In this document: in pieces, positions 13,355 through 46,611 of the stretch
How positions within the stretch are numbered: the first letter of the stretch is position 1
Layout of the letters: every line of letters starts with the position of its first letter
From: Fluviicola sp.
Lineage (GTDB): Bacteria > Bacteroidota > Bacteroidia > Flavobacteriales_D > Crocinitomicaceae
Assembly (NCBI RefSeq): GCF_039596395.1
Contig: NZ_JBCNJT010000001.1
Span: 310,001-374,000, forward strand
Direction of reading: 5' to 3'
DNA length: 64,000 bases
Translations under genes and position numbers: made by a program
The notes under the pieces: generated by a model
The model's input: only the letters and a program-made list of their open reading frames with translations
Told to the model about the DNA's origin: nothing
Databases searched by the model: none

Positions 13355-16033
13355 TTATTCCACCGTAAATTCTTCTTTCTCGTCCGGTTTTCCTTTTTCT
13401 TTTAGTTTCTCACCGAATTTCTTCAAACCTTTCTTCTCCTTTTCAATCTTTTTCTTTTCCTCGTACGGGTTCACTTCTTCTTCCTTTCCGAATTCGATCT
13501 TCAATACTTCGTACTCTTTTTTCGGAGGCTGGTATTTTTTGATGGTGGTGTCTTTTTTAAACAGCCCCAATTCTGACTTCAGAATGGAAATAGCTTCTTT
13601 TTTCGCCTCTTCCCGGTTTTGTTTGGATTCTTCCTTGCGGGAAGTTTTGTCCCATTCGATCACCGGATCGCTCAGGTTTCCATACATGCGCACGAAGATC
13701 TTGAAACCTGTTCCGTCGTCTTCCACGATCCCGAATTCCGATTCGTCTTTTTGCTCTTTTAATTCCCGGAAACGGAAAGCAAAGCGGTAATCGATGTCGT
13801 TGTTGAACTTGTGTTTTCCTTCTACACTGATGTTGAGCGCACTGGATTTGATTTCCATTTTAGGAATCACGATCGTACTTTTCTTGATCAGGATGGTGTT
13901 TTCCAAAGTCTGGAAGCGGATGTCGTTTAACTTTTCTCCCAGTGCATCAATTTCCCGTCCTTTCAGGATCATTTTGGTTTTGGTCGTTTTCAGGTCTTTG
14001 GTAAGCGCGGTAAATGTGCTCACGTTTTTCAATTGTCCGCCGATGATTTTCAATTGGATCTGGGCTTCCAGTTCGTCTTTCAGGATCCCGTAAGTCAGGT
14101 CAAACGGTGCTTTCATGTCCAGGATCGCTTCTGCACGGCCGCTGATGTTGTCTTCTTTGATCACTTCCTGGTCAAAATTGTTCCATTCCCGGAAGATCGG
14201 TTTGAAGTAAATGTCTTTCGAGCTCAGACTGGTTGCCAGCTGGAAATACTGCGGTGACGATTCCACCACCGCCAGTGTTCCGCGAACGGTGGCATTTCCT
14301 GTGATTCCATGGAGTTTTTGAATGGAAATACTTCTGTTTCCCACGGTCATTTCTCCGTTGATTTGTGAAAAAGTGTGATGGTCCATATGGATCGCATCGA
14401 CATTCAATTTCACATTTCCATTGATCAGGGTCGGCATCATCCACTCGTGATTGGAAGCAGTCGTTTTCGGATCTCCCGCAATGGTATTGGTGAAATCTTT
14501 CAGGTTAATCTTTTTGCTTTCAGCAATTACTGCAATATCCAGTGTGTGCTTGTCCTGCAGGAACTGGTCGATGTAATTGAAACTTCCGTTCAGCTCCAGG
14601 TCGGATTCGCCCAGATGTACTTTCAGTGCTTCCAGCACGGCATCGCTTCTGTTCAGGATCAGGTTCCCGTAAATGTCATAGAATTTGCGCGAATCATTCT
14701 GAAGCCGGAAATCCACATTGTCCATGAGTGCCGTTCCGTTTCCATCCACGATTTCAACCACTGCTTCCTGGTTTTCGAATACGGTTTCGAGGTGGAAATT
14801 GGTATTGACTTTCACTCTTCCGGACAGTTCTTCGATCTTCGGTATGTGGAACAACGCGTGAATGACTTCCAGATCGACAGATCCTTTCGCGGCCCCGCGG
14901 TAACTGGGTTTGGAGAAACGGCGAATGGCCAGGTTCCCTGAAAAAGGCCCGCTGATCGTTTGAAATGCTACGTTTTTGATCGTCAGTTCTTCCTTGTCTT
15001 TTCCTTTCAGAGTCGAATAATATCCTTTCAGGTCAATATTGCGAAGCGTTAAGCCTTTTGTCGGTTCGGTCAGCCTTCCGTTATCAATGGAAAATTGGCA
15101 GTCGACTTTCGGATAAGAATCTTTTGCCAGCCCGTTTTGAAAATCCAGGTGAAATGTTCCGGTTCCCGAACCTTTAAGTTCCGAAACGGTTTTCACTTCC
15201 TTCATGGCCAGGTTGTTGGCCAGTTCGGCAAGCGGAATTTTGTCGGCGTCTATTTTCAGGCTGACTTCAGTCGTGTCGACTTTCACATCAAAATCAAACG
15301 GAATTCCGGCAAGCAATAGTTTTCCGCGGTCAATGGAGAAAGTTTCCGAGATTTGATCGATGTGAATGGCTACTTGTGTGGAAGCCTGCTGATTGATGAT
15401 GAATGGAACCAGTCCGTTCTGAATGCGCTGAATATAGAAATCGGCATTTGTAGCAATATCGAATTTGTCCTGCGTAAAATTCCCCACAAGCTGAATGTCC
15501 TGGACTTTCGTCTTGTAACTGTTCTCGTTGACCTTGTTCGAATAGGAAAAACGGATCCCGGTTGCGTGAATGGATTCCAGGGTCAGGTTGAAATTCGTTT
15601 TTTCATCGGATTTGGATTCCTTGAAGATGTCGTAATTGACTGCGCCTTTTTTGTTGACTTTCAGTTGAAGAGTTCCGGGTTTGATATCTACTTTCTTGAC
15701 ATTGTATTTTTCATTCCAGATATCCATCGGGTTGAACTTCAAACGGATTTGTTCGGTGTAAAGCAACGTGTCTCTGCGCGTAGCATCCGGAAATGCGTCC
15801 TGGATGAATACACCGTTGAAATCAAGGCTCAAATTGGGGAATGTGGCCCAGAAAGTTACGTCGATCTCGTCCACATGAACTTCTGTTTTCAGGGTTTTGT
15901 TGATCTCCGAAATCGCATAGTCGATAATGTCGTCCTTAAAGATGTAAAGCAGGAAACTAATGAGCAAAACAAGGGTAAGCAGGATTCCGAAGAACCATTT
16001 CACAGATCTCACCAGCCACTTCTTCCGCTTCAT
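13355..16033 (-). CDS. AsmA-family inner-membrane-anchored protein
   Basis: The 892-residue protein has one N-terminal membrane helix (about residues 14-33, FFGILLTLVLLISFLLYIF) followed by a long periplasmic region that begins like AsmA proteins (IIDYAISEINKTLKTEV, TFWATFPNLSLDFNGVFI). The repetitive beta-strand pattern continues to about residue 780. AsmA-like proteins act in envelope lipid traffic and outer-membrane assembly. The last ~90 residues are rich in Lys and Glu and look disordered. It is a single gene between an unexplained gap and the MarC gene. A TAAATTTG box lies 4 nt before the ATG. Confidence 0.88.
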   Translation of the reverse strand: MKRKKWLVRSVKWFFGILLTLVLLISFLLYIFKDDIIDYAISEINKTLKTEVHVDEIDVTFWATFPNLSLDFNGVFIQDAFPDATRRDTLLYTEQIRLKFNPMDIWNEKYNVKKVDIKPGTLQLKVNKKGAVNYDIFKESKSDEKTNFNLTLESIHATGIRFSYSNKVNENSYKTKVQDIQLVGNFTQDKFDIATNADFYIQRIQNGLVPFIINQQASTQVAIHIDQISETFSIDRGKLLLAGIPFDFDVKVDTTEVSLKIDADKIPLAELANNLAMKEVKTVSELKGSGTGTFHLDFQNGLAKDSYPKVDCQFSIDNGRLTEPTKGLTLRNIDLKGYYSTLKGKDKEELTIKNVAFQTISGPFSGNLAIRRFSKPSYRGAAKGSVDLEVIHALFHIPKIEELSGRVKVNTNFHLETVFENQEAVVEIVDGNGTALMDNVDFRLQNDSRKFYDIYGNLILNRSDAVLEALKVHLGESDLELNGSFNYIDQFLQDKHTLDIAVIAESKKINLKDFTNTIAGDPKTTASNHEWMMPTLINGNVKLNVDAIHMDHHTFSQINGEMTVGNRSISIQKLHGITGNATVRGTLAVVESSPQYFQLATSLSSKDIYFKPIFREWNNFDQEVIKEDNISGRAEAILDMKAPFDLTYGILKDELEAQIQLKIIGGQLKNVSTFTALTKDLKTTKTKMILKGREIDALGEKLNDIRFQTLENTILIKKSTIVIPKMEIKSSALNISVEGKHKFNNDIDYRFAFRFRELKEQKDESEFGIVEDDGTGFKIFVRMYGNLSDPVIEWDKTSRKEESKQNREEAKKEAISILKSELGLFKKDTTIKKYQPPKKEYEVLKIEFGKEEEVNPYEEKKKIEKEKKGLKKFGEKLKEKGKPDEKEEFTVE

Positions 16034-41685: not shown

Positions 41686-41860
41686 AATCGTCAATTTAAT
41701 GAAAGGTACGAAAAACAGCTTACAATTCCGTATTTATCTGCTGTAGCGGATTGTTTTTTCAAAAGCTTTCGTTTTTTTCTTGTTCGTAAATCCTTTACGT
41801 GGTTGATAACTAATTTTGCCTTGTTGATTAATTATTAATCAAATTTAGATTTTAAAATAA

Positions 41861-41950: not shown

Positions 41951-43171
41951 ATGAACGAACAACAACGAAGCATTGTCCACATGGACCTGGATACCTTTTT
42001 TGTCTCCTGTGAACGCCTGGAAGACAGCCGCCTGAACGGAAAGCCCATCTTAATCGGTGGAGCATCTGACCGTGGAGTCGTAGCCAGTTGTAGTTACGAA
42101 GCCCGCAAATACGGAATTCATTCGGCAATGCCCATGAAAATGGCCAAAGAGCGTTGCCCGGAAGCGATTATTATCAGTGGAAATTCGGCCAATTACACGA
42201 AATATTCGCGACTGGTAACGGATATCATCCAGGATGCAGTACCGGTGGTGGAAAAATCTTCAATTGATGAGTTCTACATAGACCTTTCGGGAATGGACCG
42301 CTTTTTTGGATGCTACAAGTATGCCGGTGAACTGCGGCAAAAGATCATGAAAGAAACCGGATTACCCATTTCCTTTGGAATGTCGGTTAACAAAACCGTT
42401 TCCAAGATCGCAACGGGAGAGGCGAAACCGAATAACCAGATGAATGTCATCGACGGGCAAGAAAAGGGATTCTTAAATCCGTTATCTGTGCAGAAAATTC
42501 CGATGGTGGGAATGAAAACCTACCAGACGCTTTGCAGCCTGGGAGTGAAACGCATCGGGACCATTCAGCAAATGCCGGTAGAAATGCTGGAAAGTGTACT
42601 CGGACAAAACGGCATTGCCATCTGGAAAAAAGCACAGGGAATTGATAACAGCCCGGTGATCCAGTACAGCGAGCGGAAATCGATTTCCAGTGAACGCACT
42701 TTTGAGAAAGATACGATCGATGTGGTACGTTTGAGAGCCATTGTTTTTGCCCTGGCAGAGAACCTGGTTTTCCAGTTGCGTAAACAGAAAAAAGTATGCG
42801 CCTGCATTTTGGTAAAGATCCGGTATTCCGATTTTCAAACCACGACCCTGCAGCAGCGGATTCCTTATTCGGCGGCGGATCATGAAATCATTCCGGTTGT
42901 AATGAACCTCTTTGAAAAATTGCATAACCGCAGGTTGCTGGTGCGTTTGGTTGGAGTTCGCATGAGCGAATTGGTACACGGGAATTACCAGATGCGCCTG
43001 TTCGACGAAGGTTCCAGATTGGCCACTTTGTACCATTCAATGGATGATATCCGGGAGCGTTTCGGAGAACGGGCAATCCAGCGTGCGATTGGCATGCAGG
43101 TGAAACGGATCGGACATTTTAATCCTTTTAGGGGAGAAACCCCGGTGATAGTTGCAAACCGTATTGTCTAA
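41951..43171 (+). CDS. dinB: Y-family DNA polymerase (Pol IV type)
   Basis: A 406-residue translesion polymerase. Catalytic acids are visible in HMDLDTFFVSCE (D12) and SSIDEFYIDLS (D106, E107); ISFGMSVNKTVSKIATGEAKPN and the helix-hairpin-helix stretch VQKIPMVGMKTYQTLCSLGV follow, then the little-finger domain (about 240-370). It copies damaged DNA at low fidelity. The second DnaE-type polymerase downstream recalls the dinB/imuB-dnaE2 mutagenesis cassettes, but no ImuA-like gene is seen. The last ~25 residues show no clear beta-clamp motif. Confidence 0.93.
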   Translation: MNEQQRSIVHMDLDTFFVSCERLEDSRLNGKPILIGGASDRGVVASCSYEARKYGIHSAMPMKMAKERCPEAIIISGNSANYTKYSRLVTDIIQDAVPVVEKSSIDEFYIDLSGMDRFFGCYKYAGELRQKIMKETGLPISFGMSVNKTVSKIATGEAKPNNQMNVIDGQEKGFLNPLSVQKIPMVGMKTYQTLCSLGVKRIGTIQQMPVEMLESVLGQNGIAIWKKAQGIDNSPVIQYSERKSISSERTFEKDTIDVVRLRAIVFALAENLVFQLRKQKKVCACILVKIRYSDFQTTTLQQRIPYSAADHEIIPVVMNLFEKLHNRRLLVRLVGVRMSELVHGNYQMRLFDEGSRLATLYHSMDDIRERFGERAIQRAIGMQVKRIGHFNPFRGETPVIVANRIV

Positions 43172-43254
43172 CATTTTCTGCAAAGGGAGAAAATGGGAGC
43201 GGAATTATCGAATATCCGAAGCAAACAGGTTTGAACTACGCAGGCACACTTGTC

Positions 43255-43611
43255 TTGTAAACCATTTAGGTAATTGGTTTACAAACAATAAACCCGGAGG
43301 TGGTCCGTAATGGCGGATCGCCTCCACATCCAATGACGAAATGAAAAAGAAACGAATAGTCAGCCCGAACTGACATTAAATGAACAACCCGACCACCTGA
43401 AATCGCACCTGTTGTTGCCCTCTGTTCACTAATAACCACCACCACCGCCACAACCTAAGGCTAACCACAACGAACAGAGGGAAACGATTGGAACCAGGCT
43501 CCTGGATGTCACGCATGCTGCCGGATTAAGAGAGAAGGTATAAGCACCGTGACACCAGGAATTTGGTTGTTTAAAAAAAAAGAAGCTTCGACTCCGCTCA
43601 GCTTCCTTTTT
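43255..43611 (+). ncRNA. candidate structured RNA or leader between dinB and dnaE
   Basis: Five strong inverted repeats follow each other: H1 TTGTAAACCA/TGGTTTACAA (43255-43284, 10 bp perfect); H2 GGAGG..TCCG/CGGA..CCTCC (43296-43325); H3 AATCG outside CCCTCTGTTC/GAACAGAGGG (43401-43489; 10-bp perfect inner arms, 44-nt loop); H4 AACCA, CCTGG, GTCACG against CGTGAC, CCAGG, TGGTT (43492-43568); and a terminator hairpin with T-run (43582-43611). The right arm of H1 can alternatively pair with 43290-43294 (GGTTT/AAACC), a possible switch. No credible protein frame covers the region. It could be an independent RNA or a 5' leader that attenuates dnaE, which starts 54 nt after the T-run. Family not recognised. 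Confidence 0.4.
43582..43611 (+). terminator. terminator or attenuator before dnaE
   Basis: Stem GAAGCT/AGCTTC, 12-nt loop, then C and five T. It ends 54 nt before the dnaE ATG, so unless dnaE has its own promoter in that short interval, transcripts must read through it. The stem-loop sequence GCTTCGACTCCGCTCAGC looks like a type often repeated in Bacteroidota genomes. Confidence 0.65.
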
Positions 43612-43665
43612 CAAGAATCTTCGGTGACTTAGCGAAATCTAAGCCATCGCAAATTGGCAATTACT

Positions 43666-46611
43666 ATGATAAATGTTCATTCGTGTTACAGTTTAAAATA
43701 CGGGATGGTGGATCCGGAAGAATTGGTGCAATGGGGCGCAGGTTCCGGTTATGAACGCATTGCATTGACTGATATCAATAACACTTCGGGAATATTGAAT
43801 TTTGTCCGTTACAGCCAGGAAAATGGCCGCATTCCTGTTGTGGGTGTCGATTTCCGGAATGGAATAGCATGTTGTTATGTGGTTTTGGCCAGAAACAATG
43901 AAGGCTTCATGGAAATAAATACGTTCCTGAGTAAGCATACACATGAAGAAACGCCTTTTCCGGCGAAAGCTCCGGCATTTCAGAACTGCGTGGTTATTTA
44001 TCCCTGGGGAAAAGAACCGGAAATCCTTGAATCGTATGAGTTTATTGGTGTAGCAGCACACCAGCTGAACCGCTTTCGAATGAATCCGGATAAAGACGGA
44101 GCGAAATACCTGGCGCTTGCCGGTATGACTTTTCGTTCCAAACGTGATTTCAACACGCACCGCCTGCTTCGGGCAATTGATCAAAACGTGTTACTTTCCA
44201 AATTACCGCCTGAAGAGCAAACCAGGGAAGATGAAGTGTTTTTGCAAAGAGAAAGCTTGCTCGAACGCTATGAAGAATTCGGTGAATTGGTGCTCCGGGC
44301 AGAAAAAATCCTCGAAAGCTGTTCCATTGAATTTGAGTTTGCACCCCGGGCAGCTTCCCAGAATCTGGCGCTTTACACCAACTCCAGGGAAGAAGACCTC
44401 CAATTGATCCGTTCACTTTGTGAAGAAGGACTGAAAAATCGTTACGATATCACGACAACGGAAATCAAGGAGCGGATAGAAAAAGAAATCAAGGTGATTG
44501 ATGAAAAAAACTACATCACCTATTTTTTGATCGCCTGGGATATTATTTCCTACGCGAAATCCAAAGGATATTATTATGTAGGAAGGGGAAGCGGGGCAAA
44601 CAGTTTGGTGGCCTATTTACTGGGAATCACAGATGTGGATCCGCTGGAACTGGATCTGTATTTCGAACGCTTCATCAACCTCTACCGGCAGAACCCTCCG
44701 GATTTTGATATGGACTTTTCATGGCGAGACCGCGATGATGTGATCCGGTACGTTTTCGAACGCTTCGAGAATACGGCTTTGATCTGTACTTACAATACAT
44801 TCCAGTACAAAGCTACCGTGCGGGAATTGGGGAAAGTATTCGGCTTACCCAAAACGGATATCGACATGCTTTCGGGCGATAAGAAAAGAGAACTCAAAGC
44901 CGATCCGATCCAGGAACTGGTCTTGAAATACAGTGAATTGATAGCCGGACTTCCTTCTCACCTGAGTGTGCACGCAGGAGGAATGATCATCAGCGAAAAA
45001 CCGATCAATTATTTCACAGCCACTTTTTTGACTTCGAAAGGCTACAAAACAACCCAGTTTTCCATGATCGAATCGGAAGATGTGGGTTTGTATAAATTCG
45101 ACATCCTTTCACAAAGAGGTTTGGGGAAAATCCGGGATACGCTGGATATTATTGCGTATAACCAACCGGATCGCCCGCCTCACGACATTCACGATGTGCG
45201 CCGCTTTATTGTGGATGATAACATCAATAAACTGTTGCGTGAAGCGACTGCAATCGGCTGCTTTTATGTGGAATCTCCCGGAATGCGTATGCTGATGATC
45301 AAGCTGCGAACCAATACCTACCTGGAATTGGTTGCTGCAAGTTCCATTATCCGGCCGGGAGTTGCCTCTTCGGGGATGATGCGGGAATATATTTTAAGGC
45401 ATCGCAACCCGGAACGTGTCAGGGAAGCGCATCCTGTTTTGCTGGACATTATGCCGGATACTTATGGCGTAATGGTTTACCAGGAAGATGTGATCAAAGT
45501 GGCCAATCAGTTCGGAGGATTGGATCTGGCCGAATCAGACGTATTGAGAAGAGGAATGTCGGGAAAATTCCGCTCGCGGGATGAATTTTTGCTCGTCCAG
45601 GGTAAATTCTTTGAAAACTCCAGGCAAAGAGGCCATTCCGAAAGAGATATCAGCGAGATCTGGCGGCAGATCGAAAGTTTTGCCGGATATGCTTTTTCCA
45701 AAGGGCACTCGGCTTCATATGCGGTAGAAAGTTACCAGTGTTTGTACCTGAAAGCGTATTATCCGCTGGAATACATGGTGGCCACGATCAATAATTTCGG
45801 GGGATTCTACCGCACGGAAGTGTATGTGCTGGAAGCCAAAAAATTGGGAGCAACCATCGAAGCACCGTGCATAAACAGGAGCAAGGCAGAAACAATTATT
45901 CGCGGAACGGTTATCTGGCTGGGATTTCAGCACATTTCGGGAATCGAATTAAAACACATGCAGCGATTGGTACTGGAACGGGAAACAGGAGGGGAATTTA
46001 CCGGTTTCAACGACCTGATGCAGCGCATAGAAATTCCTTTGGAACAATTGTTATTACTGATCCGGATAGGAGCGTTGCGTTCCTTTGGAATCCCGAAAAA
46101 AGAATTGATGTGGAACGCTCATTTGAACGTTCACAAAGTCGTGTTGAAGTCGGAAAGCCAGCCCGAACTATTTTTACAGGAACGCCGGGAATTTGTGTTC
46201 CCGGAACTTACGGAAACAGATTTTGAGGAAGTTTTTGAGCAGATGGAATTACTGGACTTCCCCTTGTGCAATCCGTTCGAAGTACTAAAAGAAAAACCGC
46301 TGGATGGAGTTCTGGCGAAAGACCTGTTGAACTATGTAAACCGCAAAGTCCGTGTTTACGGATATTTGATCGCGGTGAAAAAAATTGTGAGCGCCAAAAA
46401 CCAGATCGTGCATTTCGGGACGCTTTTCGATGCCGAAGGTGAACAATTAGATACCGTTCATTTTCAGGATGTTGCTTTGAAACAACCGTTCCGGGGAAAA
46501 GGAATTTATGCGATTGATGGAAAAGTTGCCGAAGAATTCGGGCATTTTACCATAGAAGTGGAAAGTATGGAAAAAGTTCCTTACCGCGAAGACGTGCGGT
46601 ATAGCGAATAA
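43666..46611 (+). CDS. second DNA polymerase III alpha-type polymerase (error-prone DnaE-like)
   Basis: Start set at the ATG at 43666; a TTG four codons upstream is less likely. The 981-residue protein is shorter than replicative DnaE (about 1160). It has a PHP domain (1-~200), the C-family catalytic core with YVGRGSGANSLVAYLLGI, the metal acids PPDFDMDFS (D346, D348, D350), the fingers and tandem HhH region (about 740-820) and a C-terminal OB fold (about 900-960). The PHP metal site looks lost: INVHS in place of HxH, and LTDIN where active forms have TDH. It lies after dinB, so a translesion role is likely by analogy with dinB-dnaE2 cassettes. Confidence 0.88.
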   Translation: MINVHSCYSLKYGMVDPEELVQWGAGSGYERIALTDINNTSGILNFVRYSQENGRIPVVGVDFRNGIACCYVVLARNNEGFMEINTFLSKHTHEETPFPAKAPAFQNCVVIYPWGKEPEILESYEFIGVAAHQLNRFRMNPDKDGAKYLALAGMTFRSKRDFNTHRLLRAIDQNVLLSKLPPEEQTREDEVFLQRESLLERYEEFGELVLRAEKILESCSIEFEFAPRAASQNLALYTNSREEDLQLIRSLCEEGLKNRYDITTTEIKERIEKEIKVIDEKNYITYFLIAWDIISYAKSKGYYYVGRGSGANSLVAYLLGITDVDPLELDLYFERFINLYRQNPPDFDMDFSWRDRDDVIRYVFERFENTALICTYNTFQYKATVRELGKVFGLPKTDIDMLSGDKKRELKADPIQELVLKYSELIAGLPSHLSVHAGGMIISEKPINYFTATFLTSKGYKTTQFSMIESEDVGLYKFDILSQRGLGKIRDTLDIIAYNQPDRPPHDIHDVRRFIVDDNINKLLREATAIGCFYVESPGMRMLMIKLRTNTYLELVAASSIIRPGVASSGMMREYILRHRNPERVREAHPVLLDIMPDTYGVMVYQEDVIKVANQFGGLDLAESDVLRRGMSGKFRSRDEFLLVQGKFFENSRQRGHSERDISEIWRQIESFAGYAFSKGHSASYAVESYQCLYLKAYYPLEYMVATINNFGGFYRTEVYVLEAKKLGATIEAPCINRSKAETIIRGTVIWLGFQHISGIELKHMQRLVLERETGGEFTGFNDLMQRIEIPLEQLLLLIRIGALRSFGIPKKELMWNAHLNVHKVVLKSESQPELFLQERREFVFPELTETDFEEVFEQMELLDFPLCNPFEVLKEKPLDGVLAKDLLNYVNRKVRVYGYLIAVKKIVSAKNQIVHFGTLFDAEGEQLDTVHFQDVALKQPFRGKGIYAIDGKVAEEFGHFTIEVESMEKVPYREDVRYSE

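Follow-up and report, generated by a model that had tools for sequence, protein, structure and literature searches.

What lies in the long gap between two adjacent polymerase genes of Fluviicola, and what could it do there? In the 64-kb stretch of DNA analysed here (the window; taken from genome G000, 4.6 Mb in 5 contigs), a gene for a DinB/Pol IV-type polymerase is followed in the same direction by a gene for a DnaE-type polymerase, and 494 nt (43172–43665) separate the two. The gap folds strongly on the plus strand (−149.1 kcal/mol against −114.9 ± 5.4 kcal/mol for 100 shuffles, z −6.3) and shows a weaker excess over its shuffles on the minus strand (z −3.0). Four inverted repeats were listed in it, namely 43255–43268/43271–43284 (93% of 14 nt), 43414–43427/43472–43485 (93% of 14 nt), 43492–43505/43555–43568 (79% of 14 nt) and 43576–43587/43600–43611 (92% of 12 nt), two of them containing perfect 10-bp stretches, and folding adds hairpins at approximately 43295–43325 and 43359–43374. 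A preliminary description of this DNA had proposed that five such hairpins form one structured RNA unit. The presence of the repeats, including the two with perfect stretches, was confirmed, and the distance of 54 nt that it gave between the end of the last hairpin (43611) and dnaE agrees with an ATG at 43666, which is most likely the start of that gene. The features discussed below are collected in Table 1.

Table 1. Features of the dinB–dnaE locus (positions in the window)
Feature	Position	Strand	Remarks
Probable dinB promoter region	41785–41842	+	Aligned in 7 species
Palindrome CGTAAATCCTTTACG	41785–41799	+	Part of the probable dinB promoter region
−7-like box TAATTTTGC	41811–41819	+	TAnnTTTG type
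Palindrome TTGATTAATTATTAATCAA	41824–41842	+	Part of the probable dinB promoter region
Second TAnnTTTG	41870	+	Upstream of dinB
dinB-type Y-family polymerase gene	41951–43171	+	Upstream of dnaE, same direction
Invariant block GGAATTATCGAATATCCG	43201–43218	+	18/18 bases identical in 7/7 species
Variable linker	43250–43386	+	Hairpins 43255–43284, ~43295–43325 and 43359–43374, none conserved
80-nt stretch rich in C and poor in G; candidate site for Rho loading	43387–43466	+	Top plus-strand C minus G of the window
Hairpin P1	43409–43490	+	Inner stem 43418–43427 with 43472–43481; C-rich 44-nt loop 43428–43471
Long hairpin P2	43492–43568	+	Conserved apical part GCCGGAU ... GAAGGUAUAAGYAC
Terminator-like hairpin, then T5	43576–43611	+	Not conserved; Fluviicola genomes have similar copies at other places
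dnaE-type polymerase III alpha gene	43666–46611	+	ATG 43666; ORF open from TTG 43654

Alignment of the gap with those of six relatives divided it into three parts, a 5′ block, a variable linker and a two-hairpin core (P1–P2), and the sequence diverges again 3′ of P2. In the six relatives, the linker (approximately 43250–43386) either has other sequence in its place or cannot be aligned, and the distance from the block to P1 ranges from 85 to 282 nt, with both length and hairpins varying among species. Inspection by eye revealed a clear terminator hairpin in just two of the seven species, that of the window and G002, and the remaining five have none or a different one; a terminator scan with loops of 3–8 nt did not list 43576–43611. 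The idea that the five hairpins form one unit is thus not supported: the first hairpins (~43255–43374) and the terminator are not conserved, and only P1 and P2 are kept. Conservation and covariation of the hairpin arms, which the preliminary description had named as the test for an RNA, are found in P1 and P2.

The P1–P2 core is a conserved secondary structure that fits an RNA of the plus strand. Across the seven sequences, 322 of the 333 cells of its 48 pairs are standard pairs (96.7%), and six of the 48 pairs have changed on both sides; the sample consists of seven species, two of which are close to each other (G002 and G008, the nearest pair by dinB). None or one of 500 shuffles scored as high on four of five measures, whereas the observed value for the remaining measure, further pair types, did not exceed the shuffles (237/500). 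When the structure was slid along the alignment, only 35–49% of cells were paired, a control in which the real structure is favoured by having been derived from the same alignment on which it is counted. For each of the seven cores, moreover, none of 200 shuffles folded as well as the real sequence (z −3.8 to −7.4). With these compensatory changes in P1 and P2, the earlier suggestion of a structured RNA is supported.

Further material on P1 came from G003 and G001, where this hairpin is duplicated upstream of the core (L032:1887–1940, L033:1905–1959) and changes on both sides of the stem keep the pairing. With the duplicates included (nine rows, eight distinct), 91.9% of the cells of the P1 helix are paired, and four pairs show both-side changes. 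The shuffle test for P1 alone is weaker, with 17 to 80 of 500 shuffles reaching the observed value depending on the measure (17/500 for the covariation score, 56/500 for paired cells), and P1 slid by +1 gave three pairs with both-side changes versus four for the real structure.

Regarding the strand, each direction was given its own consensus fold, which reached −56.2 kcal/mol on the plus strand (322 of 333 cells paired) and −36.4 kcal/mol on the minus strand (264 of 285 cells). Imposing the plus-strand structure on both strands, a setup that favours plus, gave 322 versus 279 of 333 cells, and single-sequence folds were better on the plus strand in six of the seven species, the reverse being found in G012, which carries an insert. 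Coding was considered for the core and rejected, as the spacing of its landmarks breaks the reading frame.

The two halves of P2 are identical between species at 28–37 of 32–37 positions per pair (76–100%, or 0–9 differences). At the four-fold sites of dinB, pairwise identity is 41–58% (86% for the nearest pair, G002 and G008) and 15 of 138 sites are invariant in all seven, and these sites are therefore far diverged. Judged from these comparisons, the core is under strong sequence constraint and is kept by natural selection. The sequence of the P1 loop is less conserved (20–34 of 41–44 positions identical between the window and the six others), and its composition is kept, with 17–19 C and 2–5 G per 43–49 nt in all seven species. 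At the tip of P2 (GCCGGAU/GAAGGUAUAAGYAC), the unpaired positions hardly vary, and this points to a partner that binds there.

Searches against Rfam 15 yielded no match above the curated threshold in the 64 kb. The best and only sub-threshold match to the gap, up to E 5, was mir-1289 (RF04121; 19.3 bits against a cut-off of 66, E 0.49), an animal microRNA model whose likeness to a long hairpin we regard as chance. Within Rfam, the earlier statement that no described RNA matches is therefore upheld, and among the open-access papers listed by our literature search, no title or beginning of an abstract named this RNA.

A DNA search with the whole gap in 199 genomes, including the window's own, matched eight genomes, seven of which have the core; G077 matched through the terminator only. 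The core is present in 7 of the 14 Fluviicola genomes (the window's own and six others), always between dinB and dnaE. The core model R1, run under strict filters that lose weak matches, matched seven genomes in a sample of 399 from the order, each of them a Fluviicola with a single match apart from the adjoining P1 duplicates, and only the window's own in a sample of 395 from the phylum. The whole gap had no BLAST match in phages and plasmids, two patterns had none in the viral contigs searched, and a search of genome contigs returned five loci (those of G001, G002, G007, G008 and G012) and no added species. In a search for P1 elsewhere, with the locus and its antisense set aside, two matches were below E 0.01 (7e-5 and 1.4e-4) and seven fell between E 0.1 and 1; of the former two, one is placed where a gene begins and one is a small intergenic hairpin without the loop, and both were taken as chance.

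According to a protein search, 9 of the 14 Fluviicola genomes carry this dinB at a minimum of 70% identity, and the RNA is present in the seven of them whose DinB is at least 90% identical to that of the window. In G009 and G011, the nearest relatives without the RNA (DinB 70–71%), dnaE follows dinB after 7 and 3 nt. In a dinB tree of 16 rows, comprising nine from Fluviicola and seven chosen by hand from 23 loci outside the genus, the seven RNA carriers form one clade (support 100/99). The RNA is thus restricted to one clade, with one copy per genome at a fixed position, and we infer that it was gained once.

Of 150 genomes searched from the family, 97 carry this dinB, and dnaE is present at 22 of the 23 loci outside the genus that were returned and inspected. 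Nine of these 22 gaps measure −9 to 13 nt, five measure 78–283 nt without a known insert motif, and eight (L114, L117, L119, L121, L122, L123, L124 and L127) measure 467–673 nt and contain an ORF with the motif of PF05635, the 23S rRNA intervening-sequence protein; one of these proteins was confirmed by hmmscan (E 9.8e-37). The core motifs are in none of the 22 gaps. From these gap sizes and inserts, adjacency of dinB and dnaE is likely the ancestral state, and the junction, which has received inserts more than once, looks like an insertion hot spot. Inspection by eye also revealed repeat-rich inverted ends flanking the PF05635 ORF in five gaps (L114, L117, L121, L122 and L124).

The 5′ block lies upstream of the region with which the preliminary description began and does not appear in it. 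It starts 26–31 positions past the dinB stop codon and is surrounded by weaker conservation across approximately 43190–43240. In all seven species it opens a short ORF (MGxELSNIR..., by eye); however, the length of this ORF varies among species (approximately 13–38 codons) and amino-acid-changing positions are hit more than silent ones (by eye), and coding was therefore rejected. The 38-residue version from G012 had no Pfam match up to E 1. The block was also considered as a genomic operator. Copies with two or three mismatches number 57 outside the locus itself in four genomes versus one for the reversed pattern, and all 26 of the 57 that were examined lie inside stop-to-stop frames of at least 135 codons. 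They therefore look like common codons rather than operators.

How the gap is transcribed can be approached through the −7 box consensus of Bacteroidetes, TAnnTTTG (PMC7366714). At least one such box is present upstream of dinB in all seven species and two in six of them, 13 in total versus 1.0 expected, a comparison of homologous and hence not independent regions; TTG or TTTG at the −33 distance is found in only two of the seven. No TAnnTTTG was detected in the seven gaps, a weak result because chance alone would put only approximately 1.5 boxes in the seven gaps together. With boxes upstream of dinB and none in the gaps, the gap is most simply part of the dinB–dnaE message, and its RNA probably shares the dinB promoter and is transcribed with dinB, although the invariant block could itself be a promoter of another type. 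An element acting at the junction is therefore our first choice.

Both palindromes of the probable dinB promoter are conserved in the seven species, the first differing by one base in G001. The first (41786–41798) can be read as GTAA-N5-TTAC, resembling a diverged Bacteroidetes LexA dyad, and the 15-mer has an exact second copy at G000:C2:1396586, beside unrelated genes. An SOS operator was considered and is kept as no more than a lead: CGTAAA-N3-TTTACG has three exact sites in the genome, of which the other two adjoin genes that do not look SOS-related (by eye), and at one mismatch the reversed control has more sites than the motif (46 versus 26). In other Bacteroidetes, dinB–dnaE operons have been predicted in LexA-like SOS networks, and GGA-N5-TCC or CTAA-N5-TTAG operators have been described upstream of dinB-type genes (PMC8565304). 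The gene pair is the same as in Fluviicola; however, the palindromes differ from these operators, and that account is not known to describe an RNA element.

The explanation that we favour, with about as much belief as doubt, is that the gap encodes a clade-specific intercistronic RNA, made from the dinB promoter on the dinB–dnaE message, which would act in cis at the junction and set the expression of dnaE apart from that of dinB. Its elements follow one another in the order 5′ block, C-rich stretch with P1, and P2, and it would probably adjust the amount of the second polymerase. Loading of Rho at the C-rich stretch is the leading candidate mechanism. Once the ancestral coupling of dinB and dnaE was lost, the C-rich stretch would be free of ribosomes and could load Rho, P2 might pause the polymerase or shield the 3′ end so formed, and some of the transcripts would terminate before dnaE. 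Their share may then be tuned through the conserved P2 tip and the 5′ block, by a protein, by a ligand or by a second segment of RNA.

Rho sites have been described as stretches of 70–80 nt, free of ribosomes and with C exceeding G, after which a pause hairpin comes within 150 nt (PMC6407284). The C-rich stretch starts 24–27 nt before P1 in all seven species, its best 78-nt C/G ratio is 3.4 in the window copy and 3.4–5.4 over the seven species, and P2 follows. Part of this ratio is due to the C-rich arm of P1, which pairing would hide. Among 78-nt plus-strand segments, C/G exceeds 1 in 41% and 3 in 0.3%; by this ratio, other places in the window exceed the stretch at 43387, and by C minus G over 80 nt its value of 23, the largest on the plus strand, compares with up to 27 on the minus strand of the window. 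The only plus-strand place with a 78-nt C/G of at least 5 is at 13383–13489. A rho gene was matched in all 14 Fluviicola genomes, 13 of them over the cut-off, and in Escherichia coli Rho-dependent termination with a hairpin occurs at the galE–galT cistron junction (PMC9239205). It is on the C-rich stretch with P2, the rho gene and this precedent that we propose partial Rho-dependent termination before dnaE. The composition is in itself a weak sign of Rho and could equally serve an RNA-binding protein.

The same hairpins might instead belong to a trans-acting small RNA, processed from the 3′ region of dinB by cleavage around P1–P2, which would target mRNAs or titrate an RNA-binding protein through CUAACCAC-rich single strands. 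The two hairpins, stable and conserved and with a loop rich in C and A, would suit this role, intra-operonic small RNAs have been reported in Bacteroides thetaiotaomicron (PMC7366714), the duplication of P1 in G001 and G003 is what a multi-site protein sponge might show, and a single copy at a fixed place is compatible with it. However, the terminator is not conserved, the gaps are without a TAnnTTTG box (a weak point, as noted above), and the complement of the invariant 5′ arm of P1 (TGAACAGAGGG) has one non-self exact site in the seven genomes, which argues, for that arm only, against a conserved extended target. We regard such an RNA as a tentative and rather unlikely alternative. The preliminary description had also suggested a terminator/antiterminator attenuator or ligand switch acting on dnaE. 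The terminator-like hairpin with its T5, the highly conserved apical region of P2 and a short pairing, noted by eye, that the invariant AUAUCCG of the block could form with GGAUGU of P2 are in line with this proposal, which is nevertheless improbable: a clear terminator is restricted to two of the seven species (by eye), the hairpin thought to bear the switch and its partner at 43290–43294 both lie in the non-conserved part, and no competing helix appears in the consensus folds.

It is very unlikely that the gap holds what is left of a mobile insertion, still structured but disused, at a junction that tolerates such events. This reading would agree with the PF05635-motif ORFs at the same junction in 8 of the 23 other loci of the family, but the core motifs are missing from the 22 gaps of those loci, a decaying remnant would not be expected to show P2 and the 18-nt block under such strong constraint, and the core model matches once per genome; nor was a PF05635 ORF seen by eye among the ORFs listed in the gap of the window. 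Long hairpins adjoining DNA polymerase genes could also point to a retron-like non-coding RNA or to a DNA-level element, either a folded single strand or an operator, as which the 18-nt block could serve. We give this hardly any credence. The reverse transcriptase family PF00078, detected in 7 of the 14 Fluviicola genomes, was not found in the RNA carriers G001, G002 (84% complete) and G003, and the consensus fold favours a plus-strand RNA over a DNA element. Returning to an intercistronic RNA acting in cis, it is doubtful that it represents a new cis-regulatory class. In such a class, P2 tip and block together would sense a polymerase protein, a damage-linked molecule or a processing factor and would gate transcription or translation from dinB into dnaE, and the RNA would so set the ratio of the two error-prone polymerases. 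The family is small and confined to one clade, and its kind, the intercistronic structured RNA, is known; it lies beside two error-prone polymerases.

Two systems offer comparisons. At galE–galT (PMC9239205), as proposed for Fluviicola, transcription can stop at a gene junction without reaching the following gene, and the mRNA 3′ end bears a hairpin (a role that we propose here for the Fluviicola hairpin); termination was shown there by experiment, whereas for Fluviicola it is deduced from composition. The inter-CDS small RNAs of B. thetaiotaomicron (PMC7366714) likewise lie between two genes of an operon in the same phylum; they were found by RNA-seq, whereas the Fluviicola RNA is predicted from sequence, and the two are likened by position only. 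If the favoured explanation is right, one bacterial lineage would tune the balance of two mutagenic polymerases with an RNA acquired when their genes were already neighbours, at a junction where different inserts settle repeatedly, and the close relatives without the RNA (G009 and G011) would provide natural controls for polymerase ratio and mutation rate.

Two of the non-conserved hairpins of the gap have relatives elsewhere. The terminator-like hairpin GAAGCTTCGACTCCGCTCAGCTTC (43577–43611) recurs in several Fluviicola genomes and in one genome of another genus, as a dispersed intergenic hairpin. The first hairpin of the linker (43255–43284; TTGTAAACCA...) also has near copies at other places, three of which are spaced at 124–125 nt in G012:C1:168152–168427.
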